Shown here: in pieces, positions 8,595 through 62,900 of the stretch | Layout: each line of letters opens with the position of its first letter | Numbering within the stretch: position 1 is the first letter of the stretch | Assembly: GCA_003990745.1 (NCBI GenBank) | Contig: RBNI01000004.1 | Location: forward strand, 1-64,000 | DNA length: 64,000 nt | Direction of reading: 5' to 3' | Source: Jimgerdemannia flammicorona | Lineage: Eukaryota > Mucoromycota > Endogonomycetes > Endogonales > Endogonaceae | Program-made: the position numbers and the translations under genes | The notes under the pieces: model-generated | Told to the model about the DNA's origin: nothing | What the model saw: the letters and a program-made list of their open reading frames with translations, nothing else | The model's database searches: none

Positions 8595-10245
8595 AATAAG
8601 GATCTTCTTGAGCATCCTTATTCATTAGTCTAGTTCTGAAAAATTTGCTGATCTCATAACCTCTGGCAAGGGGTCAAAAAGTGGTGTTTATGGGCTGGCA
8701 TCTTCTCTTTGTATTTTGGTGTGATGGTGAAGGGTTGCTCCCTTTATATAGAGCAAGGGCCTGATTCTGATCTTGACTAATCAGTTGATGGTTCAAACTC
8801 CTCTGGCTTCAAAAGTCTCATGGATGAGTAGTTACTGGTACTGTATCTCTTAGAGAATAGTCCAGACAAATAGCCTGCTAGTTACAGGACATATTGTTAC
8901 AATTTGCGAACTAGAACCTCATAGGTGGTTATTACATTTTGCTTCTCTTATATAGGTTTGTGGTACTTCTTGAGTCTGTTCCTGTGTACTGTGGTAGGCA
9001 GTATGGTCTCTGAGATTTTTTTAAGCCAGAAGGTAGTTTCCTTGATATCTTGTATGTAGAAGAGTCCTTCTCATTTGGGCTTCAGTTTTTGTGACCATGA
9101 GACTTCTACCATATTTCAATACAGTAGGACCTTTTCTCTGATTTGGATGGGTTCTAGGATCTTGTGATTATTTTCTGCATTCTTTCTTATCAGTGCTTGT
9201 GACTTGATGATATAATCTTCAGCCTTCTTTCTGATTTGGTATAGTCTCTGGATTTCTGCATTGACCTGTCTCTAAGTTAGGTCTAGATTTGTAACTAAGG
9301 TTCCAATAAAATCTTCTTCTCCAAAGAACAGTTCTCTTGGGGTAAAGTGTGTGCTCTGTGATCATATATCTTATAGGACAGAGAGGGCAGTTGGGAGATA
9401 GTTATCCCAATTCTCATATGTCTCTGAGATCTTTGCTAGAATGTTCTTGAGGATCTTGTTGGTTCTCTCTATCTGTCCATTTCCTTGAGGGTGGTACATA
9501 GTGGTCTTGATATACTGGATCTTGTATTTCTGATACATTATCTCATAGAATCTATTGACAAATTCTGTGCCATAGTCTGTTGTGATTTGCTTCAGTGTCT
9601 TGTAGTAACAGATGATTTCTCAGTATAGGAAGTCAGCTATAGAGAGGGCATTGGCTTCTTGTAATGCTTCTGCTTCTATCCATTTGGTAAAGAGGTCTAC
9701 AATAACTATAATATATGTAGCAGTTTCCTGATAGTATTACTGATAGTGGCCCAATGATATCTATTGTAATATGGTGGAAGGAGATAGGCTTAATTATTGA
9801 TGATCTGGGTGCCTGGTCTTACTGATTTTGTTTCTGTTTTTGGCACTTGTCACACCCTTTGACAAATTGGTGCAGGTTTTCTTCCATCTTAGACCACTAT
9901 ATGGTTCTTTTTGCCTTATCATATATATTAGTTCCTTCTAGATATCCTTGCTCATATACTTCCTTCATTACTTGATACTTCTTATGTTTAGGTATTACTA
10001 GCTTTCCTCCTTTTCTGAATGTAGTGTTGTCTAGTTCAAACTGTTTCTAAGTCCAGTTAATGATAGTGATTGTCCAGGGTTCGAGGTGGTTGAGCATCTT
10101 CCACTGCTCAAGATAGCTGATTAATCCATAGTATAGCTCCTTATTCATGTTGAATAGTCTTGATGGGGGTGTTTCGGGGTGTCCTTGAGAGTGCATCAGC
10201 ATTGATATTGATTCTTCCTGAGTAGTGCTTAATAGTACAGTCATA
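8595..10245 (-). pseudogene. Gypsy-A integrase region, decayed
   Basis: On the minus strand, downstream of RNase H, fragments read as integrase. A segment corresponding to the Cys pair of the HHCC finger lies near 9830-9880. A catalytic-core start (ITIDIIGPLS) lies near 9750-9780, and further pieces run down to 8.7 kb. Frame changes and TAA/TAG codons are frequent, and no open stretch exceeds about 65 codons. Placement rests on order and on similarity to the better-kept integrase at 28.2-29.4 kb. Confidence 0.6.
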
Positions 10246-12006
10246 CTCTTACAGCTTGTAGATCTATCTGGTATATATTTCTTTGGGGTTCAGAGTGTAG
10301 AATAGCCAGACAAGAGTGGAATAGTCTGTTTGAATAGTGAAGTGTTTCTCGGCTAAGTAGTAGTGGAACTTGTCTACTGCCCAAACTTCTGCTAAGTATT
10401 CGAGCTTGCATAACTCATAGTTCTATTCCACTCTGTGGGTACCTTGGCTTGCATAGGAGATAATATATTTATGTCCATCTTTTTTCTGAGCTAGGACTGT
10501 TCCAAGTCCTATAGTGCTTGCATCTGTCTGCAGGATGAATTCTAGGTTCCAATCTGGTCTTCTGAGGATAGGTGCTTGGGTCAACCTGGTCTTGAGTTCA
10601 TTGAAGGTTTCTTGGCACTCCTTGGTTCATTCGAATTTGGTTTTCTTCTTCAGTAGCTCATAGATAGGTGCTACAATGTTGGAATATCCTTTGATGAATC
10701 TTCTGTAGTAGCTGGCCAGTCCAAGGAAGGCATAGACTTCTGTGGTTGTTCTGGGTCTTGGGTAGGCTGCAACAGCCTCAATCTTCATGGGGTCTGTGTA
10801 AATTCTGGTCTGGTTGATGAGGTGTCCTAGATGGGTGATTTCTTGAGCTGCAAACTTGCATTTCTTAGGCTTGATGTAAAGGCCATGCTTCTTGAGCTTC
10901 TTGAGAGCTAGCTGTATGTGATTGATATATTCCTGTATAGTGTTGCTGAAGATGATCATATCATCAACATAGACAAAGAGCCATTTTCTAATCTTGTTGC
11001 TGAAGACTCTGTTCATCATTCACTGGAAACTTGCTAGGGCATTGCACATTCCAAATGGCATTCGCAGATAGATATAGGTGGCATCAGGTATGATGAAGAC
11101 TGATTTCTCATTAGTATCTTGAGTGAGACCAATCTGATGGAAGCCTGAAAACAGATCCAAGGTGGTGTAGTATTTGGCTTCACTTCCAAGAGTGGTGAGG
11201 ATTTCTTGAATATTTGGCAAGGGCTGCCTATCCTTCTTGGTGATGGCATTGAGCTTCCTGTAGTCAATGTAGAGTCTTGGCACAAACTCTCCAGGCTTGC
11301 TTCCTTTCTTTGGGGCAAGGACAATGAGTGAAGCCCAGGGACTGATAACTTGCTTGATAATTCCAGCTTCTTCCATTTTCTTGAGTTCTGCTTGCAGCCA
11401 TTCTCTATAAGCAGATGGTATGGGTTTGGCTTTCTGGTAGATGGGCTTGGTATCACCAGTGTCAACTTCATAGTAGTACTTGGGTTCTTGATTGTGGATA
11501 TTCTTGAAGTCTGTAGCAAGTACTCCTTCATTCTGGTGTAGGATCTTGAGAAGTTGTTCTTCTAGGGAAAAGTTTTCTCCAATAGTATATGTGTGCTTGT
11601 TCTGATCCTTGTCTTTCTTGTGCTCAAGTTCAGTAATCTTGGTGGCAGCATAGGCTCCTCTTCCAGTAGATCCAAAGCCTTGTTCTTCTCTCTTGGTCTT
11701 GATAAATTTGATGGCTTCAATGATCTTGGGTTTCTTGATTTCATAGATCAGCATCTGGCCAATTCTGTCATGCTTCTTGACTTTGAATAGGGTGGTGGGG
11801 TTGTGATTTCTGACTATGAGGAAGATCTCACCAGTATAATCAGGGTCAATTACTCCTCCTTTAACTAAGATTTCACTTTTGGCCAGACTACTCCTAGTCT
11901 TGATAATTCTGGTATGGTTCTCTAACAGCTTAACTCCAATTCCAGTGCCAAGTAGGGTGGTGGTCTGTGGTTTGAGAGTAGCATCTTGAATACTGACAAG
12001 GTCCAT
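10246..12006 (-). pseudogene. Gypsy-A pol: dUTPase-like segment, reverse transcriptase, RNase H
   Basis: The first frame (12006-11020) opens with dUTPase signatures: RSSLA, GGVIDPDYTGE, DRIGQML and GFGSTGR, corresponding to motifs 2 to 5. It then enters reverse transcriptase with RLYIDYRKLN, LDLFSGFHQI and LRMPFGMCNA. A TGA stop after ASFQ, where G2 also has TGA, is followed by a second frame (11019-10627). That frame holds the catalytic FVYVDDMIIF and the LGLASYYRRFI thumb. RNase H follows (FILQTDAS, then EYLAEVWAVDKFHYYL near 10.35-10.55 kb) with stops. The RT active-site Asp pair is intact. The dUTPase probably limits uracil incorporation in related elements. Confidence 0.85.
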
Positions 12007-12990
12007 TCCTATGGCTCCTTTAGTCTTGTATTCTGGGATCTTGGCTTCAGGGTAGAACTTCTTGATCTTGAGGGTGATATCTGGTTCTTATTCCTCCTCA
12101 TCATCATTGTCAGCTTGAAGCTCTGGAGGCTGGTTATCTTCTTCGACTTTCTTTTTTGCTTTGGCAGCTTCTTGCTCATATTTCTATTGGCAGATTTTTC
12201 TGACTTCACTGATACAGGACCAGTAGTCATTCAGGTGTTCAGAGCAGTACATCCTAGTACTATGGGGGCATCTTTCTTGAGGAGTATAGCCATCAATAAT
12301 CTTGTTATATCACTGCTCATCTGTGAGCTTGGGTATCTTATTCTTGTTCTTGTTTACCAAGTGTATGAAGACTTCTGTGTCCTCCTCATCTCCTTTCTCC
12401 ATGTCTGGTAGGACTCCTTTGTGGATATTGATAGAGACTCATACCTTTCTTCCTCTATAGTTGATCTGTATCTTCTGGGCATTGAGGTCAATGATGGCCT
12501 TGGCCTTGTGAAGCCATTGGTTACCAATGAGGATATCATAGTTGGTGGCACTTGTAACAATCATATCTACTGGGATGGTAGCTCCTTCTATCTTGATGGG
12601 GACTTCTCAGATTTTGCCAAGGGGGGTAGTTCATATACCATCTACTGTAACATAGACTATCTTGGTAGACTCTTCAATATCTCAGCCTAGGCAGTCAATT
12701 GCCTTCTTGTTTATGAGGTATCCTTCAGCACCAATATCAATAATGGTATCAAAGATACAGTCTTTGATCTGACATAGAGTATAGGCTGATGTCTTACACT
12801 GGTCTTTGAATTCTTTACCTGAGTTTTTGGATTCTTCTTGTATATTGTGAGCTTCTACAATCTTGTACTCTTGATTCTTGGTAGTAGTTATAAGTCCTAC
12901 TCTCAACTGCTGTCTGAAGACAGAGACTTCAGCTAGCTGTCCAAAAGTAGCATTGACCTTCTGTTCCTTGAGGTTCTTGTAGATATCATA
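12007..12990 (-). pseudogene. Gypsy-A protease region and linker
   Basis: A frame at 12906-12682 contains FDTIIDIGAEGYLINKKA, the flap-side context of a retropepsin. The catalytic Asp-Thr/Ser-Gly is changed to Asp-Ile-Gly, as expected from an ACN-to-ATN transition. Further pieces at 12560-12354 and 12230-12009 keep coding character (MLQVPPTMISSLVTNGFTR, then a Lys-rich linker) but change frame. The changed triad makes this copy unlikely to process a polyprotein. Confidence 0.65.
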
Positions 12991-18754: not shown

Positions 18755-19807
18755 GGAACCACTCTAGCCAGTGAAGGAGAAAAGAAGAAGAAGCTTTGCA
18801 AAACCAAGATCTTCAAGTATAATATCTTCAAGGATCTCAGTTAACAAAAGATCAATGCAATCTTTGGCCAGGTGGTAGAAATACCCACATTTAGACAGTA
18901 AATGAGATACAGACTTGCTGAAACAACTAAGGAATAAAGATAGAAGATAACTGAGATCAACAATATTCAAGAAAACTCAGGAGAAGAAAGCAAAGACAAC
19001 TATAAGACCTCTGCCTATGCAACCTGTCAAATCAAGGATAGAGTCTTTGAGGCTATCATTAATACAGGAGTAAAAGAATGTCTTCTCAGCAAGAAAGCAG
19101 CAGACTACCTAAGTTGGGAAGTTAAAGAAGCAACTAAATTGGTATTTGTCACAGCAGATAGTATAAGAGCCATACCTCTGGGAAAGATCTGAGATATTTC
19201 CATCAAGTTTGGAGGAGTAACCATTTCAGTAGATATAATCATAACTAATGTAACCAACTATGACATTCTTATTGGTAATCAATGGCTTTATAAAGCTAAG
19301 ACAGTAATTGATCTGAATACTCAGAAGATGCAGATTATCTACTGTGGACAGAAAATGCAAATTTCCATCAATGTCAACAAAGGAGTTCTGCCTGAGATGG
19401 AGGAAGAAGAGAGTGAACAAAAGAAAGCCTACATGGTGACAACTTAGAAAAAGAAGAAGAAAATCAGATGGATGAGTGAAGAAGACTGGTGTAAGAAGAT
19501 TATAGAAGGATATATACTACAAGGAGTCTGCTCTTATGAGATCTGAATATACTATATGGAGCATGTCAATGAGTATTACCAGTATACTGGCAAAATCAAG
19601 GAGATCTACTACCAAAGAAGAGAGAAGGTCCTTGAGAAACAAGTAAGATAAGAAAAGAAAATAGAAGAAAAGAATGATAAATTACCAGCTCTTCTCAAAG
19701 ATAGTGATGATAAAGAAGAAATCAGGATCAAGATTCAGAAGATTCATTTTAATATAGTTCTACCAGAATACAAGTCAGAAAATGCAGCCAGAATAAATAT
19801 CACTACA
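18755..19807 (+). pseudogene. Gypsy-G2 protease and linker
   Basis: Near 19045-19110 the frame reads EAIINTGVKECLLSKKAADYL. This matches the retropepsin context of Gypsy-A, but the catalytic Asp is changed to Asn, consistent with a G-to-A change on the other strand. Downstream, ITNVTNYDILIGNQWL and an acidic/Lys-rich linker follow, with scattered stops. Confidence 0.65.
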
Positions 19808-21569
19808 GTGGAGAAAACTGTACTTGAACCTCAGATAAGCACCCTACTTGCAACTGATCTGGAGATAACTATTCCAAAGGACTATATCAGAATTCTCAAG
19901 TTAAGAAGCAGCCTAGCTAGAAGTGAAATCACAATTGAAGAAGTCATCAATTCAGATTATATTGGAGAAATACTACTTATTGCTAGAAACTATAATTCTA
20001 TGATTCCATTTCCAATCAAGAAGAAGGACTGACTAGTACAGATATTGATCTTCTCAGTTCTTCAGCCAAGGATCATAGAAGTCAAGAAGTTGGAGGAAAT
20101 AGAAAGAGGAAGAAAAGAATTTAGATCTACAAGAAGAAGAGTATTCACTAGTATCAAGATCACTGAGCTAGAGCACAAGAAGGAGAAAATCACAAATAAG
20201 CACAGCTATACTATTGGAAATAAATTTCCACTCAAGATAGAGCTCAGGAAAATACTCTATAAATTTGAAGATATCCTTGCTACAGACTTTAAGAATATCA
20301 AAAAAAAGACTCTATACTACTATTATGATATAGATATTAGAGATATTGAACCAATTTATCAGAAGGCAAGACCTGTCCTGCCAGTCTACCAAGAATGGCT
20401 TAGAGAAGAAATCAAACAGATAAAAGAAACTGGTATCATTAAGGAAGCCAGTAGCCCCTGGTTTTCACCCCTAAAGAAAGAAAGCAAGTCTGGAGAATTT
20501 ACTCCAAGACTCTACATTAATTACAGAAAGCTCAATATAGTCACCAAGAAGGATTGCCAACTACTATTCCTCATTAGTGACATCCTTATAACTCTGGAAG
20601 ATAAAGCACAATATTATAGTATCTTGGATCTATACTCAGAATTTCACCAAATTAGACTCACAGAAACAGTAAGTGAGAAATCAGCCTTCATCACCCTAGA
20701 TAGAACCTATGTCTACCTGTAAATACCATTTGAAATATACAATGCACCAGTAAGTTTCCAGTGAATGATGAACAAAATCTTTCACTATGATATGGGAAGA
20801 TGGATGATGGTTTATGTGGATGATATAATTATCTACAGCCAGATACCAGAGGAATATCTGCAGTATGTCTAGTAGATAATAAAAAAGCTGAGAAAGTATA
20901 GACTATATATTAAGCCCAAGAAATGTAAATTCACAGAAATTGAGATCTCCTATCTTGGCAATATCATTAACTGAGATAGAATATATACTGATCCTCTCAA
21001 GATATAAGCAGTAGCAGTATACCTAAGACCTACTACTATTACTAAAGCCCAAGCCTTCATAGGATTTATCTCATACTACCACTAATTTATCAGAGGATTC
21101 TCTAATATCATATGTAGGCCCAATCTACAAACTCAATAAGAAGAATACTAAGTTTCAATGAGCTGACAGGCAACAAAAAGCATTTGATGAGCTTAAGGTC
21201 AGACTGACCCAGGCACCCATCCTTAGAAGATCTGATTGGACTCAAGAGTTCATCCTGTAGATAGATATAAGTATATAAAGACTAAGAACAGTTCTAGCTC
21301 AAAAGAAAGACAAAGTGAGTATATTATTACATACCTCAGCCAAGAAACCCAAGGAGCTGAAAAAGAATATAAATCCTATAAGTTAGAATATCTTATAGTT
21401 ATCTGGGCTATAGAAAAGTTTCACTACTATCTTGCTGGAAGACACTTTACCATTCAGATAGACTACTCAGCCCTTACTTAACTACTGACTACAGAGTAAC
21501 CCAAAGGAATCTATATTAGATAGATTATAAAGTTACAAGCATATGACATAACTATCATACACCACTCAG
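19808..21569 (+). pseudogene. Gypsy-G2 pol: dUTPase-like segment, RT, start of RNase H
   Basis: The dUTPase remnants are LRSSLARSE, INSDYIGEI and FRSTRR (eroded motifs 2, 3 and 5). RT follows with PRLYINYRKLN, ILDLYSEFHQI, an eroded IPFEIYNAP and the catalytic MVYVDDIIIY near 20810-20835. RNase H reads EYLIVIWAIEKFHYYLAG near 21385-21440. The reading ends at the hAT-2 insertion (21570) and continues in integrase at 28165. Confidence 0.8.
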
Positions 21570-33817: not shown

Positions 33818-33900
33818 GCTATCTTGGCCGAGTTGGTCTAAGGCGCCGCACTCAAGTTGCGGTCTCGTAAGAGGCGTGCGTTCGAATCGCACAGATAGCA
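33818..33900 (+). tRNA. tRNA-Leu (anticodon CAA)
   Basis: 83 nt. The acceptor stem is GCTATCT paired with AGATAGC plus discriminator A. The anticodon stem CCGCA/TGCGG has loop CTCAAGT, so anticodon CAA (reads UUG). A long variable arm (TCGTAAGA region) makes it type II, as for Leu. The internal promoter A box starts TGGCCGAGTTGG at about 33825, and the B box GTTCGAATC is at 33880-33888. No intron is present. Confidence 0.93.
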
Positions 33901-33922
33901 CGTAAATATTTCCTTTTGTAAC

Positions 33923-44767: not shown

Positions 44768-47453
44768 ACAGCTTGCCACCCCGACCTCGGAATCAACAGA
44801 AGAAAAAAAAAAAACTCACCATAAGCTTTCGATCTCTCCACGCCCTCAACAACTCGGCCTTCTTCTCCTCCTTATCCAGCAGCTCGATAACCCCTTTAAT
44901 AACTTTCCCAGCGATCTCCACATTCCGGCCAAACAGCTGCACCAACGAATCCAGATATTGCTCGACCGGCAGGACTGAATCCCTATATTCAATGATAAGC
45001 TGCCGGAACTGCTGCATGCGCTCAGTATCATTCTCAAGGTACCCAAGGATCTGCTTCCGCAGCGCGGAGTGCTGCTTCAATGTCTCGGCGTCCACAGTTA
45101 CCGCAGGCTTGGCCGCGGCGGCAGGGTTCGACGTCACGTCTTCGGCCGTATCGACCGTCGGCATGCCAAAGCCAGCAGGCGCACGCGCCGCAACCCCGCG
45201 CGTAGGCACGGGCGCGGGTGCGGACGCAGGCGAGAGCGCGTCGGGTGTCAGCGCACCAAACCCGGCGGGGGCACGTGCCGCTACTCCGCGTCGTTCGCGC
45301 TCGGGGGGGGGGTCGTTGTTGGCGGTGGCGGCGGCGGAACTAGCCTCGGAGTCGGGCGGGGATTGCACATTCCTCGGCTGCTTCTGCCTGCCCTTGCCGC
45401 GGCCGCCCCGATCATCACTTTGTTGCTGCTGCTGTTGTCGGCCCGCGGAGAGGTTGAGATCCTGCATAGCGCTTATGACGGCCTCGACGGGGCGCTGGTT
45501 CGTAGCCTGGACTAAGGTGCCCAGCTGGGGGAAGGCGTCCACGGCGGGTTGTTGTGCTAGTACGGCGCCGTGACCGCTGTCGTGGTGCCGGTCTCTTTCC
45601 CGATCCCTCCCGCGGTCTCGAACTCGGTCTCGGTCTCGGTCTCGGTCTCGTCCGTGGTCGCGCCGGCTATTCGGTCCGCTGGTGTACTGGAAGTTCACCT
45701 CCACCTTGCGAGCTTCTCGCTGCTTGGCGCGTGGGATGTGAGCCCCTCCGTGGACTTCAACCTTCGGGAATCATTGATTTCGTTGACGAGATTGATAAGT
45801 GTGCCAAGTGAAACAAACGAAAAACACGCGCGCGACATGTACAAAAGCCACCAAACCACTAGCAGACCAAGATATGTGTTGTCTATGATTTACCTCATGA
45901 GCTTTTAGATCAATATCAGATGCAAAGACAACGAACTTCTTCTCCAAGCATTCAGAATTTTGGCACATGAAGTGGTCGTCGCGGAAATGCTTGGCCTGTA
46001 ATGTGTATAATGAGTTAGGGAGGTCGAAGCCACAAATGAGTAAACATGACAGTGTTCTGCCCCCCACTATTTTTTATTTTTTTTATCGTATAAAAGACTA
46101 TCAATCCCCCTCCTCCTCCACTCCTTTCCTCCCTTCTCGCAATAATAATAACTCACCAAACCCTCATAATTCGGATAATACTGGTGCCTAATCCCCTGCC
46201 TGACGCAGACATGGCACTGCTCATGCTTGTCACGACAATGTTCGTAAAGCTCGTCGTCGCCGTAGAACCCCATAGAGCAGAAGGCGCATTCTGGGTGGCC
46301 CTTGAACCCTGAGGACTCGCCGTCGCGATTGTTCTCGAACCCTTGCGAGTGATGCTTACGCAACTGGTTGGATGTGAACAATGTGTGTTCGTGCGAGAAA
46401 ATCTTTTTGTACCGCGTGCAGAGGTCGCTGGTGGCGAGGGAAGCGAGGAAATTGAAAGATTTGGTCGGGAGGTCGTGAGTGATGGGGATATTTGACACCC
46501 ATGGGAGAGTTTGCTACAGATATCTCATCTCAATTCCATCAAGACCACCTCTTCCCCACGACATCATCCAAACCACTATTCCTCTGTAAACAACAAAAAT
46601 GTGACACTCACCACAAAAACATTTCGTGGGTTCTCTTAACATGCCTCTTGAGCTCATACCATCCACTCTCGTACACGTCGCATGTGGGTTCCGGACAGTT
46701 GAACCGTAGCAGCATTAGCACATCCTCCTGCATCTGCAACGTTTCAAACCGCGTGTCCAGCCTTTTGTTTATAAATGGCGTGTCGGCATCCGTGTAATCT
46801 TGGAAGGGTTTGTCAGGGGAGGACGTCAGAATCACCGTGGCTTGCTCAGTCTGCATTTAGGAGTAAAGAAGGCGAGGATTAGGTTGCGCAGAAGTATGAA
46901 ATTCGTGTTTCCGCCTCCGACGCCATTTATTGCTTCGCCACCCAAGGCGATATATTAACATTCACCACCGCGAGCCCATAACCGCTCACCTCCTCGCGAA
47001 TCCTCTACGCACCTTACAATATGCACAATTTCTCGTCTTATACAACGCCCTCAACCTCAACGAGCACAAGTGACACGTGCGATGATTACATTCAGCGACG
47101 GCGAAGATGACGATCGGTTCCGTACAAATAAAGCAGAAGTCAGTCTCCCCATCCTCGGCGGCGGGCTCCTGCACCGGTGCCAAGGCCCTCTGCAGCGATG
47201 ACGGTTCGGTATCCGGTGCTTGCTGATCTTCAGGCGCGGCCCTCTGCCCGTTCGCCCTGCCGCCGCCGCCACCGCCGCTCCCACGGCCATTCTGGTAGGG
47301 GTGCCGGAAATGAGGCTTCCCACGGTGGCTGCCAGGCTCTCCACGGTGACTGTGATGCCTTGTTGGAGCGTGCGCGGTCGGGGCGTGCCGGCTGTTGGTG
47401 TTCGCGGTGGTGTTCCCGGTGGCGGACGGGGTGGAGGTGGAGGTGGAGGCCAT
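43980..47453 (-). CDS. HEL2: Hel2/ZNF598-type RING E3 ubiquitin ligase (ribosome-associated quality control)
   Basis: Six exons on the minus strand with consistent phases: 47453-47013, 46850-46612, 46427-46157, 45995-45894, 45761-44820, 44633-43980 (an alternative last acceptor gives 44621). About 880 aa. The C3HC4 RING is at residues 107-146 (CFICTEP... CNHRTCHLC... CAYC). C2H2-type fingers follow (CPEPTCDVYESGWYELKRHV, CAFCSMGFYGDDELYEHC, MCQNSECLEKKF), as does the family-specific EVHGGAHIPRAKQREARK. The second half is low-complexity, with Arg/Asp repeats near 45600-45680, poly-Gln, and a repeated GVAARAPAGFG. The end carries a Glu run and a Lys-rich tail. Hel2 marks collided ribosomes by ubiquitinating small-subunit proteins. 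Intron 5 contains a 48-nt A/T homopolymer. Confidence 0.92.
44718..44765 (+). repeat. 48-nt poly(A) run inside HEL2 intron 5
   Basis: In the minus-strand transcript this is a U48 tract upstream of a (TA)n stretch and the acceptor. It could act as an oversized polypyrimidine tract. Confidence 0.85.
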
Positions 47454-50500: not shown

Positions 50501-50720
50501 CTTGACCCATTTGCAGCGTAGCAGATATCGCCGAAAAATGTGGGATCGAGCTCCCCAAAAATGAAGTTCACGTTTCAATTTCACATTTAAGCTCTATATA
50601 TTTTTTGTATATGCTGAAAACAGGCCCCCAGATAAACTAATGTTATTTTTCAGAGCCTTCAAAAATTCTTTTATTTTCTTTGCGATCGAGGAAAATATGT
50701 TCCCATTATTGCTATTCAGG

Positions 50721-51250
50721 CGAACACGCACAGACCGTGAGCTTGATTCCTGTACACAATTCTTCACACAGTTCCGAGTTCCGCTTCAGAGAACCGGCTA
50801 GGGCGCGTGCCCCCTCGTGGCCGATGCAGTTACCTGAACATGAACAGGGATGTATAAGCGAACACGCACAGGTCGTGAGCTTAATTTCATCATGCAGCCG
50901 CCCACAATTCTTCACACAGTTTCGACATACCCTGATCCGGAAACTTGCCAAAGTGGATGTTGCCGTCTGACCATTTACAGGGGATGGATGAGCGAACACG
51001 CACAGATTGTGAGCGTGATTCCATCGCGCAGCTGCACACAATGCAGAGATTCAGCGTGGTCAAGGTCGTGTTCCGCTTCAGAGACTCGACTAGGGGCTAG
51101 GGAGTGTGCTCCCATCATGGCTGATGCTGTTGTAAGGGGATGGATGAGCGAACACGCACAGGTCGTGAGCTGAATTCCGTCGCACAGTTGCACATAATGC
51201 TTCACACAATTCATACACACCCCATCAACTTCCGTCAACCTTCCTCATCA
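50721..51250 (-). repeat. Tandem array of LRR-coding units (~134-156 bp)
   Basis: Four units start at 50721, 50858, 50992 and 51148 with gcgaacacgcacag. On the minus strand two units encode ribonuclease-inhibitor-type repeats. One reads GNCIGHEGARALAGSLKRNS. The other reads NSISHDG and, after a one-base shift, ESLKRNTTLTTLNL. The shared gtgcgtgttcgc resembles a splice donor, and ttacaacag and atgttcag resemble acceptors. Each unit may therefore be an LRR mini-exon plus intron. Frames are broken, so it is likely non-functional. Confidence 0.6.
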
Positions 51251-52032: not shown

Positions 52033-52234
52033 GTATTGAATAATGAACATTAAAATGAAAAGTCCAGACAATTTCCCTTATTTTCTTGCACACGGCCTCG
52101 AGTGCCCCCCGACACCCTGCCCCCACCCTCACACACCCCACCTTAATATATCCAGTCCCAAGCGTGAAAATCAAGAACGAATTGCACTTACTTGATCACT
52201 CGTCATACGTCCACCTCACTTTTGATATATATAA

Positions 52235-52291
52235 CCGGTTTCGCCCTTGCTTAAGGGGCTCGTCAGTTGGCTTTAAAGCAACCAAGACCGG
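52235..52291 (-). ncRNA. Hammerhead ribozyme, stem III open (type III), apparently intact
   Basis: Minus strand, 57 nt. Stem III strand CCGGU (52291-52287), cleavage-site C17 (52286, so the site reads GUC), and closed stem I from UUGGUU to AGCCAA with a 7-nt loop (52285-52267). Core CUGACGA (52266-52260), stem II GCCC...GGGC (52259-52243), then GAA (52242-52240) and ACCGG (52239-52235). ACCGG pairs fully with CCGGU. All core nucleotides required by the hammerhead consensus are present: C3 U4 G5 A6, G8 A9, G12 A13 A14, A15.1-U16.1 and H17. A decayed second copy lies at 40129. No protein gene overlaps it. Confidence 0.85.
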
Positions 52292-52619
52292 CAATTTGGC
52301 CGGTTACGGGGTCAGTTAGTTGGAGTCTTTGTCTTTGGCATAAAAAATCATTCAGTTTACAGATGAGTAGAGAATCAAACCTACCAGAGATTTCCGTTGT
52401 ACATGTTTTCGCAGCATGCCAAATGAATATGATGGAATGCATGAATGCGAATATGAAACAAACGATAGAGTGACATTGAGAATGTGCGAAGGAATTGATG
52501 GAAACGCGGTCGAATAGCTGCAGCACGAGACTGTGGGTGTATGAAAGTTTTTTGTACAAAAGAAATGCACTTACACGTAGAGGTGTCAGGAAAATTAAGG
52601 CCGGGGAAGCTTGATGATA

Positions 52620-52826
52620 TAATACATAGGTAAGAAAAAACGCGTGGGTAAGAAAAAACGCGTGGATAAGAAAACAACATGTAGGTAAGAAACAATATAT
52701 AGATAGGAAAACAACATGTGGGTAAGAAAACAACGCGTGAGTAATACATAGGTAGGTAAAACCGCGTGGTTAAGAAAACAACACGTGGGTAAGAAAACAA
52801 TATAATTACATAGGTAAGAAAACAAT
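52620..52826 (+). repeat. Minisatellite, ~18-20 bp units 'aggtaagaaaacaacatgt'
   Basis: About ten degenerate units of (g/a)(t/g)gtaagaaaacaacgcgtg. The 'FSYPRVF'-like frames on the minus strand come from the repeat. It stops exactly where the CDF fragment begins. Confidence 0.85.
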
Positions 52827-56963: not shown

Positions 56964-59900
56964 ATGGTAACAACAGACACCCAACAACAACCACCCCCAC
57001 CCGCCGACCTCTACCACTACCTCTCAATAGTCCCCTCCTACTTCGCCTACGACCTCACCGACTCCGCCAAGAAGGACATCCTTCGCAATTGCTACAATGC
57101 ATTCTGGCGCAACGATCAGCAAGTCTTCCGTTTCCTCTTCCCGGATGGATTCGACGAGGCACTGCTCAGCATCGATGCCACAGAGGCGTCCGCGGATGCT
57201 GAACTGGTAGACGCGCTCTCTGGGTCGTCCGCTGTGCAGAATGCTGTGTTGGATAATGACGAGAACCTGCCCGAATATTCCGAGACGCATAGAGGGAAGC
57301 CGTGTGGACACGTGCTGAGGAAGGGTGAAGGAGTTTATCGGTGCAGGTATTTATTGACGCCGTTATTTGTAGAATAGGTTTGCTTATCGTTAGTGTTGCG
57401 GGATATCATTTATCGAGAACTTGGCAAGGCTTCTCCAGGATTGCGTGGAAATTGTTACCATAGTTAACCAAACGTATCTTTTCTGACGCCTTTTTCTTAC
57501 CCAAACCCAGAAACTGCGGCTTAGACGACACTTGTGTTTTTTGTGCGCGCTGCTTCCGCGCGACCAACCATGAAGGCCACGACGTCTCCTTCACGATCAG
57601 CATCGGCGCGGGCTGCTGCGACTGCGGGGACTCAGAAGCATGGCGGGTCCCGGTCCACTGCAAGTACCACACCGCGGATGCGCACTCAAGCCCGGGGCAA
57701 TCCCCCGGGCTTCCCAACCTACCCACAGAGCTGCACTCGTCAATCCGGTCGACGATCGCGACCGTGCTCGACTTCGTCCTCGAAACCTTCGCCGCATCTC
57801 CGTCGACCATCGCACCGCCTGCGAGCCGCCAGGCCGTCGAGCTCGAGGCAAGGCAGACCGCACTGATGACTGACCGGGGGCCGATGTTGGAGGAAGGAAG
57901 AGAGAAGTATGCATGCGTGTTGTGGAATGATGAGAACCATTCATTCGTGCAGGTCATTGAGGTCGTGACAGAGGGGTCGGGGTGTACAGAAAGTGAGGCC
58001 GAGCTGATCGCGAAACAGGTCGATACGCATGTAGGTGATGCGGTATGGGTTGGGGTCGTGCGAGTGGAGAGAGGGAGGTTGGGAGGGGAGGTTGGGAGGG
58101 AAGGAATGAGGGGAACATGATAGTCTCGGTTGGGTGTTATGATAGAGATGTTTAACACTACCGAACGATCTGCATATAAACTACCCCCCGCGTAACCCAG
58201 GGCCGCGAAATTATCGAGATGTCCGACGACATCGACCGACTCTTGAACATCGCCCGCGTGGTCTCGCGTGTAGGTCTAGCCGTGACGGTGCGTTCCGCGC
58301 GAGACACCTTCCGCGAGCACGTGAGCGGGATGCTCCTCCTATGGCTCAAGGAACTGACCTGTGGAAAACTCCGGCTCTTCCCTCACTTTGGCGACGGCGT
58401 GACCGTCCTGCGCGACATTTTATGCGCCGAACTCTGCTCCGAATGGCGGCGCGGCGTCTCGAGCGCCGCCGCGAACCGGGGCCCCCGACATGACGACCCC
58501 GAGGACGAGGAGATGGCATACACGGACGAGGAGACGGCGGGCGACGATGTCGTCATGGAAGAGCGGAGGGAGGAAGAAGAGGCCGCGAGCGAGGGTATCG
58601 TAGAGTTAGATGCCGATGTCGATATTACTGAGGCCGAGTGGGATGTCGTTAGGGGCGCGGAGGAGGACGACACGGAGACCTGGCCTGGGGTTTGGGAGGA
58701 GCGACAGCGGACTTCTGCGTTACAATATGAAGATTTTAGAAAGAAGTTGAGGCTTGATTGGTTGATGCTGGTGGATAGGAGGTTATGGAAGGAGGTTAGG
58801 ATTTGTATGCGAGATATGTTCATCGGAGCGCTGATTATTAAGCAGGAATACAAGAAAATTTTCGGTAGGTCGGGGTCTGTGGTATATGGTGGTGATGATG
58901 GTGATTTAATCGCAAGCAAGGCGTTGTAGTCACAATGTATGTGATAATTTTAGCCTTACAGCTGACGTGCATTTATCCCAAATCTTTATTAGCCATCCGC
59001 TTCGCCCGCAACTACCTCAAGCTTGCTGACTCCTTTCTCTTTAAAGATCGCGAGCCCGAGCATACGGTCTTCCTCCTTTCCGTTCAAGTCTTCACGGTCC
59101 CGAGACTAGCCGCTCTGCTTGTGAACCACTACAACTTTTTCGGCACGCTCTGCTCGAGCCTGCGAAACCTCTTCACTTACGACACCGTCATCCCGTCCAC
59201 CCCACGCTCGCACCTGCGTCGCCCGATCAATGTGGAGGTCGGCGCCGGCTTCAAGAACCGCCGATACTTCCAGCTTTTTCACGACCTCCGCTTTGTCCTC
59301 AGCTCAGAGTCCGTCAAGCAGAGCATCTCACGCCACCCGCGATACCTCGCACAGTATCTCGACTTCGTTGCAGCCTTTCAGGGCATGGACGTCCAGGTCC
59401 GCCAGACGGACCAGCACGTTGAGTACGAGTCGGAGACTTGGGCCAATGCATTCAACGCCACTGTGCAACTTGTCAAGTCATGCCGCCAGTTTGCCGAGTG
59501 TTTCGGCGATAATCCCGCCGTCCTCGGATTTGTCATACGAAGGCTCATGAAGAAGCTGAACGACTGGGCAACGCGCAGGCCCGAAGAGGCCGATGCTCGG
59601 GGTACCGATGCTGAAGGCGGAAGCGAGCATGAGTTCCAATTGGTCGAGACGCCGCATGCCGGGGCGCATCGTATCATCAAGTTCGAGGTTTCGGCACAGC
59701 CCGTGTCATTCCATCATCCTTTGCATTGGCTACTGGCCGAGTTGTTGGAGCATATTGAAGGGTTAGAGGATCAGGTATTGAGGGAGGCGGGATTGGGTAG
59801 TTTTAAGCATATGGCCATGGGGTTCGATGTTACAATCGAGGATATCGATGCGTTGGTGACGAATAATAGGGAGAAGGTGTTGGCCATCCTGGATTACCCG

Positions 59901-62900
59901 TTGAGAGGTAGGTTTGGAGGGGAGGGGAGGGGAGGGAGGGAAGGGCGCTGATTTTGTGTTGAAGGGAAAACGGTGATGTGTGGGTGATTGCATGAATCTT
60001 AACTTTTTATTTTTTATAGCGGTCGTTCTTTTAGCCCAGATGCGAGCAGGTGTGTGGGTTAGGAATGGTTATAGCGCTCGGAGCCAGGTAAGCTTCGTAC
60101 AAACGACATTTATATATTTTGTGAATCGGAATACATCTACTATATCAGTGACTCTAATCGATAAATTATAATCCCGACACCATTTCCAGGCGCATCACTA
60201 CCGCGAAGTTTCTGTTCGCGAATACACTTATGATGCAGATCTCCTCATCCTGCAAACGGGCTTGGTCCTCTTGGACATGGACCTATTCCTACTTACTATC
60301 CTGGACCGGTTCCAGCTGCTGGGATGGTTCAGCGGCAAGACCCACAAGGTATACGACACGGCGCAGACCGTCTACATGATTGAGGAATTGCTGGACGTCC
60401 TGATCGTGTGTGCAAACGAGCGCGCAATCCTCACCGGCGTGACCCTCGAGGACCGCATCAGGCGGGAGATCATCCATGGACTCTGCCTCTCCCCCCTTGC
60501 CTACTCCGAGCTTGCAAAGCGCATCCCAGAACGTCTTTGCGAGAACCCAAAGTACGATCAGCTGCTGTCAGAGCTTGCGAATTTCAGGGCCCCTGAGGGG
60601 TTGCATGATCATGGCGTGTATGAGTTGAAAGAGCAGTACTACGATGACGTCGATCCGTACTTCTTCCATTACACGCGGAATAATCGTGCCGAGGCTGAAC
60701 AGGTGCTCAAGAGTCGGTGGAAGAAGCACGGAGACTCGAGGACGTTTCTGGTACCGAGGCCGTTGCCGATCACGAAGGGCCCGTTCGTGAAGCTGGGTAA
60801 CGTGCTGCACGCCAGGGTGATGATACAGGTAATCACACACGCGCTGTGGAACGTGAAGGGCGACCGCAAGATGAACAACGACCTGATCATCGACGAAGCC
60901 CTCTACCTAATTATGCTCGCCCTAGTCGACGAGAACAACGACTACACCCCTAAGGCTAGCAAAGGCAAGGGCAAGCAGAAGGAAACCTCCGCGTCTCCCG
61001 CCATGCTCGACCTCGCTGAGCAAGCCGACGGCACCCCCGGTTTCGTCCACCACGCCACGTTCGACGACTACGCTGTGGCGGGCGAGCTGGAGCGTGAGCA
61101 CGTCACATTGCTCAAAGTACTGCTGCGCTACCTGGATGACGAGCACTGGAAAGAGATCCACGACAAGCTTGAATGGATTGTCGGCAGAATCTACGAGCTC
61201 GGATCGACTGTCGCTAAGGTCGCTGTGGACGAGTTCCGATGGCGCAAGGCCAACCCTTCGCTCGTGGTCAACCCTGCCGAGCCGGCGGCGGATTCGTCCG
61301 GAATGACGGAAGCCGAGCGGAAGAAACAGCTGGCGAAGGAAAGCAAGGAGAAGATGTTGGCGATGTTTGCGCAGGCGAGGGAGAAGTTCGAGGAGAATAA
61401 TGGCGATCTTGAGGATACGGACGACGACGACGAGGAGGAGTTGTTGATGGAGCGGGAAACAGAGGCAGAGGGTCGCGCCGACGACGGGGTCATGGAGCAA
61501 CTGCTGAAGGAGACTAGGAATATATGGCGATTCCCAACGGGTACATGCATCGTATGCCAGGAAGAGACTGACCAGCGGGAGTTGTACGGCATGCTATGCC
61601 TCGTCCAGCCATCTAGCATGCTCAGGCTGACCCCGCTCAAGGATGGCGGCGTGGAATTTTTGAAGGAGGTCTTGGGGACGCCGGAGACTTTGGATGTCAC
61701 CGTCCCGCTCGCGCATATAACCAAGGGATTCCAGCCTAATTCACATGTGCGCGGGCCGTATATCTCGACGTGTGGACATTTGATGCACGCGCATTGCTTT
61801 GATACGTATGCCAAGTCATTGGAGGCAAGGCAGCAGGCGTATCCGAGTCGAAATCATCCAGAGAATCTCGAGCAGAGGGAGTTCTTGTGCCCGCTGTGCA
61901 AGTCGCTAGGGAACATCATGCTGCCGATCCAGTGGAAAACAAAGATGGAGACCTTCCCGGGAGTGCTGGTCGAATCCGGTGTCGACGACTTCCAAAGGTG
62001 GTTAGAGAGCGGAGTCGATGCGGCGGCTGCGAGGTTGCAGATGGACGCGGGCGCGAGGTCCGATCCTGGCATGCCGGAAAGGAGGAGCAACAGCATACTC
62101 GCCAATGCCGCGGGTGCCTTTTCCCAGTTTGTGCGGAGGCCGTTCGGGTCGGGATCGACGGACCGCCGCGATACCATGCCGGGGAGCCTGGCGAATGCGG
62201 AACCCGAGTACGTCAGGTTCGAGCTGACCAGGCCCGAGGGTTCAGCGGACGAGCAGGATGACACCGCCATCGTGCCGCTCGTGGGTGGGGAGCCGCTGGT
62301 GATCTCGCTGGACGCTCCGAGGACGATGGAAATCTATGACCGGATCACGGAAGTGCTGCGGATGGTGTGCGACCAACTCTGGACGCAGGAGGATCGGACC
62401 CTGCGTGAGACGTCCGCCATCAAGCACGTCGATTTGCTTTGGGAGGCGTTCGGGTACACCATTTCATGCGTCGAGATCGCGCACCGTGGGATGGGGGGTA
62501 CGGGCGAGTTTGGTGAGATTGCCGGCCGCGGGACGTTGGTGGACACGATCCCCGAGGCTACGTTGACGCTCCTCCGCATGCTCTCGGAGACCACCATGAC
62601 GTACTACAGCATCGTGGCCATGGGCACGGGCATGGAGTGGGCGCGCAAGTTACGCCAGTTGACGGTGGAGCGGTTGCGGCAGCTGTTTTACGACAACATG
62701 GCGATGCGGCAGCTGGACATCGGGCCGCAGAACCTGTTTTTTGCTGCTATCCGTAACAGGAAACTCAAACCGTTGCTCAAGGATGATCCGTTCCACGTCC
62801 TTGTCGAATGCTCAATGTACATGGCCCCAACCCTCGGCTTCAAGACTCACCACCTTATGAGGCTCATGTACTTGGCCGAGGTCGTTAAAACCACAATCGC

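Follow-up and report, generated by a model that had tools for sequence, protein, structure and literature searches.

A type III hammerhead ribozyme family dispersed through the Jimgerdemannia flammicorona nuclear genome, with splice-like words upstream

The hammerhead locus and its surroundings

The window, that is the whole stretch of DNA analysed here, comprises 64,000 nucleotides of contig RBNI01000004.1 from Jimgerdemannia flammicorona. When ten of its reading frames were compared with Pfam, a ZNF598-type RING finger (46989-47453) was the only match. A UBR1-like protein lies at 58935-59951 (best match 66% identity), and ARAGORN placed a tRNA-Leu (CAA) at 33818-33901, a site with no Rfam match at gathering score. 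Two reverse-transcriptase-like stretches, 10183-12750 on the minus strand and 19421-21475 on the plus strand, resemble reverse-transcriptase loci of the same genome; they appear Ty3-like by reading of their sequence and lie more than 30 kb from the ribozyme. Nearer to it are repeated units of 42-86 bp at 50720-51222, in which a leucine-rich-repeat-like peptide can be seen by eye on the minus strand, and a tandem array of an 18/37-bp repeat at 52627-52800, just upstream of the ribozyme stretch. The putative LRR remnant and CDF gene that the first-pass annotation placed on either side of the ribozyme can be made out by eye in translations. The features at the ribozyme itself are the following.

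52235..52291, minus strand: type III hammerhead ribozyme with stem III CCGGU/ACCGG and with stems I and II closed by loops (from sequence, RF00008, pattern, fold and covariation)
52285..52286, minus strand: predicted self-cleavage site after GUC (position from the sequence, cleavage expected from the hammerhead consensus)
52315..52321, minus strand: branch-point-like word AACTAAC, branch A at 52316 (score 8.7 at -28); the word is present in relatives, as AATTAAC in C6550
52379..52384, minus strand: 5'-splice-site-like word GTAGGT, weak (4.4); also in C6550 and C7328, GTGGGT in C635, not evident in C6670
52186..52191, minus strand: GTAAGT 3' of the ribozyme; also in C2054, C73 and C635, ATAAGT in C7328, absent from C6550
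52050..52430, minus strand: stretch common to C7328 (81%), by sequence comparison
52222-52438, minus strand: stretch common to C6550 (90%), by sequence comparison

On the minus strand the GUC triplet occupies 52288-52286, with the predicted cut between 52286 and 52285, and is followed in the 3' direction by CUGACGA, stem II (GCCC/GGGC), GAA and stem III, which ends at 52235. The complete minus-strand hammerhead proposed for 52235-52291 was exact in its coordinates and in each element, and the type III topology was borne out by the core, the three helices, the open stem III and a full-length match to RF00008 (Hammerhead_3). This match, obtained at a relaxed threshold, spanned 52293-52233 and model positions 1-54; its score of 36.5 bits (E 7.9e-6) stayed below the gathering score of 48.5 bits, which is why a scan of the window with Rfam at gathering score returned no match. 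Taken literally, the motif fails the covariance-model check suggested in the first-pass annotation, a failure that is overridden by the family evidence given below. The hammerhead fold, with a loop I of 7 nt, is the minimum-energy fold of the motif, and its folding energy is ordinary (z -0.83; 42 of 200 shuffles folded equally well or better). The gapped pattern GTCT-N-CTGANGAG-N-CGAAAC, in which 17 letters are fixed, matched once in the window and in none of 100 dinucleotide shuffles. Judged from its sequence, the motif is confirmed as a genuine type III hammerhead.

A dispersed ribozyme family in the genome

The window's own genome (134.8 Mb in 7754 contigs) was searched with the same pattern, giving 79 matches on 74 contigs, compared with a single match for the reversed pattern. 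One match, C6491, had no stem I, which leaves 78 copies. This number is a lower bound for the size of the family, because the C7328 copy, with U before GAAA, escapes the pattern; its stem III is preserved through a paired change. A copy on C73 has lost the G of GAAA, indicating that some copies decay. With RF00008 at least 29 matches were found at E<=1e-3 among the best 68 of 18148 candidates scored, none of them above the gathering score, while a model built from 17 sequences recovered 49 ribozymes, all at E <=2.1e-8, from 46 loci, together with two non-ribozyme rows at E about 0.6. Relatives of the window ribozyme included C6550, C7328, C43, C73, C2054 and C6670, with others, among the best 40 of 111 candidates scored. 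A chance origin of the motif was excluded by the pattern counts, the dinucleotide shuffles and the covariation. By these comparisons the window site belongs to a type III hammerhead family dispersed through a fungal nuclear genome, and most of the family's copies look able to cleave. The UBR1-like protein in the window and the spread across 74 contigs both fit the fungal nuclear origin assumed at the outset.

Covariation, loop contacts and conservation

In the family alignment 92.6% of the cells were paired and changes on both sides were seen in 10 of 15 pairs, distributed over all three helices. The covariation score was 0.263 compared with 0.124 in shuffles; none of 500 shuffles was as high, nor did any attain one of the five covariation measures, and the slid controls were all far lower. 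The set consisted of 48 distinct rows of 51, including the two weak non-hammerhead rows, and its rows are related to one another and were aligned to the model. Covariation across the family is the strongest evidence that the predicted ribozyme is genuine.

The two loops also appear to change together. At least four Watson-Crick pairs between loop I and loop II could be formed in 44 of 57 distinct cores, whereas in controls with swapped partners a mean of 24.9 and a maximum of 34 cores reached four pairs. Co-changing words included UGCU/AGCA, UACUC/GAGUA, UGCCA/UGGCA and ACUA/UAGU, which points to a tertiary contact between loops I and II in the family.

The ribozyme was the best-conserved part of the loci, while the adjoining sequence was common within subfamilies and differed between them. 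Ribozyme positions outside the pattern were 94.4% identical (805/853) compared with 87.7% in the flanks (9910/11298). The ribozyme was more conserved than its flanks in 21 of 25 related-locus pairs and less conserved in four, counts to be read with the pairs sharing loci and thus not being independent. Of the 25 strong L050-unit matches spanning the ribozyme, 15 retained it by the pattern and 10 did not. Overall we regard the ribozymes as genuine and conserved as a family, in a setting that is new.

Recurrence of the units and mobile-element explanations

Units containing the ribozyme recur with common ends in differing surroundings. With L050 as the query, 19 of 27 strong matches started within positions 122-142, a span of 21 bases. 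With L029, 12 of 16 started within 39-51 (13 bases); five of these 16 matches ended within 484-487, which is the end of the ribozyme, and another four ended 20-30 bases later. Heads and tails of the units recombine between loci. These observations favour a non-autonomous mobile element, retrozyme-like or SINE-like, in which the hammerhead would circularise or trim a short RNA and the enzyme of another element would copy it back into DNA, leaving solitary copies; known retrozymes likewise carry type III hammerheads, as described in the part of PMC7229834 available to us. Same-strand neighbours within 2 kb, however, occurred on only 3 of 74 contigs, the copies being mostly solitary, and neither a tRNA nor a reverse transcriptase was found in 45 other ribozyme loci, the latter queried with ten pieces from the same genome. 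A short search with assumed ends gave no convincing target-site duplication in ten loci. The conservation of the ribozyme above its flanks would be unexpected of dead copies, though active source copies might explain part of it. We consider such an element possible, and it ranks close behind the splice-coupled model that we favour below.

The closely spaced copies were C635, with two same-strand ribozymes 1042 bp apart and of differing subfamilies; C1034, with three same-strand hammerheads of different subfamilies (L023 1074, 2013 and 3013) spaced by 939 and 1000 bp; and C5981, with a same-strand pair spaced by 1977 bp. No direct repeat on both sides of the window ribozyme was found within 50.7-53.9 kb. 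Of the retrozyme-like element suggested earlier, the interspersed recurrence of parts of the surroundings is supported, and the paired ribozymes 0.3-2 kb apart are not. In L031, about 48 bp including the 3' part of the ribozyme (GGCCGAAACCGATAT) are tandemly repeated directly after the ribozyme.

A remnant of a Penelope-like element had also been suggested. Hammerheads are borne by such elements in other organisms (PMC7229834, in the part available). Those hammerheads are of type I, whereas the present ones are of type III. GIY-YIG gave 22 matches on 12 contigs, none of which carries a ribozyme, and no ribozyme contig was among the best 150 RVT_1 contigs, the latter being weak evidence because only about 1.4 shared contigs are expected by chance. 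The type I family RF00163 gave no match in a search that was silent in its controls too, so that this result is no proof of absence. A Penelope remnant is very improbable, and descent from either a retrozyme or a Penelope element is unsupported, since the copies are mostly solitary and the search of the 45 other loci gave no reverse transcriptase.

Splice-like words upstream of the ribozymes

Many loci carry G|NTRAGTA or GTGAGTAT about 60-120 nt upstream of the ribozyme, and CTAAC, CTTAC or CTGAC about 6-40 nt before GUC. Splice-like words were scored in 45 loci grouped into 20 equally weighted sequence clusters, with control windows from the same loci. Using weight matrices for the 5' site and the branch point that were written after inspecting the sequences, the 5'-site score at -135..-40 was 6.84 compared with a control mean of 3.54 (sd 0.64, maximum 5.41, 115 windows), and the branch-point score at -50..-3 was 4.58 compared with 2.43 (sd 0.53, maximum 3.45). 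The branch-point matrix was high inside the ribozyme core too (5.65 at 0..40). On the reverse strand the scores were at background.

Counts of fixed words gave a similar picture. T[AG]AGTA was present in 6 of 20 cluster representatives and in 17 of 541 control windows, and CT[AGT]AC in 8 of 20 representatives and 67 of 1082 control windows. The canonical GTRAGT was not enriched (1 of 20 representatives vs 16 of 541 control windows). G|NTRAGTR occurred at 16 sites in 4950 upstream bases, whereas the rate in these loci, 28 per 116709 bases, would predict 1.2; these strong 5'-like sites come from just 7 of the 20 clusters. Their first base (group A) was A in seven, T in four, C in three and G in two. 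A non-G first base is also usual in the background (23 of 28 sites vs 14 of 16 strong sites), so it is no proven selected feature, and the window's own subfamily has G at this position (GTAGGT).

Pyrimidine bias near the ribozyme was modest and not clean, the fraction being 0.55-0.61 at -100 to +60, 0.41-0.45 at +80 to +120 and 0.52-0.58 further on. Within the 28 nt before GUC an AG was present in 23 of 45 loci, which speaks against the model favoured below, and lacking in 22, compared with control windows lacking it at a mean of 23% and a maximum of 43%. Downstream of the ribozyme, 3' splice sites were not enriched (5.20 vs 5.13 in controls, sd 0.53), and a second branch point was not clearly enriched (3.52 vs 3.10, sd 0.50).

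Flanking sequences and genes

Ribozymes located in leaders or introns of ordinary downstream genes, where they would lower or tune expression, might account for the family in another way. G+C is higher downstream (about 0.44-0.47) than beyond 300 nt upstream (0.38-0.41), downstream reading frames are common to some loci (L016, L023, L049 and L063), and the window ribozyme is followed by GTAAGT, all of which speak for it. Against it, downstream frames of at least 60 aa were about equally numerous in sense (368) and antisense (317), Pfam gave no match for the shared frames, and the lack of an enriched 3' splice site weakens the idea of an ordinary intron. We judge this explanation unlikely. An upstream coding exon was rejected: the longest open runs ending 90 nt upstream had a median of 36 codons, the corresponding medians being 29 for the reverse strand and 57 for a downstream stretch, which gives no sign of protein coding. 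Twenty flank reading frames compared with Pfam gave kelch, ankyrin, F-box/LRR, AAA, BTB/SPRY and acetyltransferase matches with no shared theme.

Downstream of several copies (L022, L023, L029, L059 and L063) lies GACGCGTCA, which we take to resemble a fungal cell-cycle promoter box; the 10-base word TGACGCGTCA is the part of it covered by the enrichment count. As a promoter word, TGACGTCA was rejected, being present at 7 of 44 loci in two clusters and chiefly in one subfamily. No known RNA family was found beside the ribozyme, with no Rfam match at gathering score in 20 fetched loci.

A possible pairing of self-cleavage with splicing

Given that splice-like words are enriched upstream, RNA self-cutting may be naturally paired with the splicing machinery in these loci. 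We tentatively favour a model in which the dispersed type III ribozyme severs a branch point from its 3' exon and leaves the spliceosome with at most the first step. The transcript would cleave itself after GUC, a few to about 30 nt past the branch point (about 9 nt after the presumed branch A in subfamily B, up to about 30 nt elsewhere), and this would detach any 3' exon. A spliceosome assembled on the upstream words could then perform the first step at most, as the 3' exon would no longer be attached for the second. The upstream exon might be freed with a defined 3' end, or an abortive intermediate might silence the downstream RNA. A more specific version, a two-cut cassette that has spread to dozens of loci, in which the hammerhead lies just after the branch point, only the first step takes place and the product is a non-coding RNA whose 3' end is defined, is rather doubtful. 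The lack of 3'-site enrichment downstream fits a first-step-only arrangement and would be equally expected without any intron.

If correct, the favoured model would offer one directly testable answer as to what role genomic hammerheads have outside retrozymes and Penelope elements, namely cleavage coupled to the spliceosome. Even without splice coupling, a well-supported nuclear fungal family of type III hammerheads is added.

Comparison with known systems

Viral or viroid-like relatives were looked for and rejected, the close core pattern having no match in viral contigs. A looser core pattern matched three viral contigs, in which stem II differs and none of which reaches the Rfam gathering score. 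These IMG/VR contigs (L078, L079 and L080) carry hammerhead-like motifs, in L079 and L080 after a terminator-like hairpin and a T run.

The present family shares its core, topology, GUC triplet and loop I/loop II pairing with the RF00008 type III hammerhead. It differs in being dispersed in a fungal nucleus beside splice-like words, with none of the at least 29 matches reaching the gathering score. The available parts of PMC7229834 and PMC7761336 assign type III hammerheads to plants and to infectious circular RNAs, and type I to metazoa; fungi are named in neither. Like the plant LTR retrozymes described there, the present family has type III hammerheads in repeated stretches of the genome; unlike them, its ribozymes are mostly solitary, with no flanking long repeats seen at the window and no tRNA found nearby.

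The only close parallel to a fungal type III family that we found, in a search that covered few subscription journals, is the report on Yarrowia lipolytica (PMC3088659, available in part), in which hammerheads lie in interspersed repeats of a fungal nuclear genome. The likeness noted here is one of description, and the available part of that report makes no mention of splice-like words. No paper on hammerheads coupled to spliceosomal cleavage was found by title or abstract opening.

The proposed first-step-only arrangement has a parallel in the processing of fungal telomerase RNA, which a paper on Neurospora reportedly also describes. No telomerase RNA match was obtained with Rfam at 20 fetched ribozyme loci. 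In fungi the 3' end of this RNA is formed by first-step-only spliceosomal cleavage, in some species at AUAAGU, whose non-G first base blocks the second splicing step (PMC4299874, in the part available). No ribozyme is reported there (the word hammerhead does not occur in the main text of PMC4299874), whereas here many loci carry one. The two systems have in common a branch point, a first step without a second (which here would follow from the predicted cut) and, in part of the family, a 5' site whose first base is not G, a parallel that is suggestive, not established.
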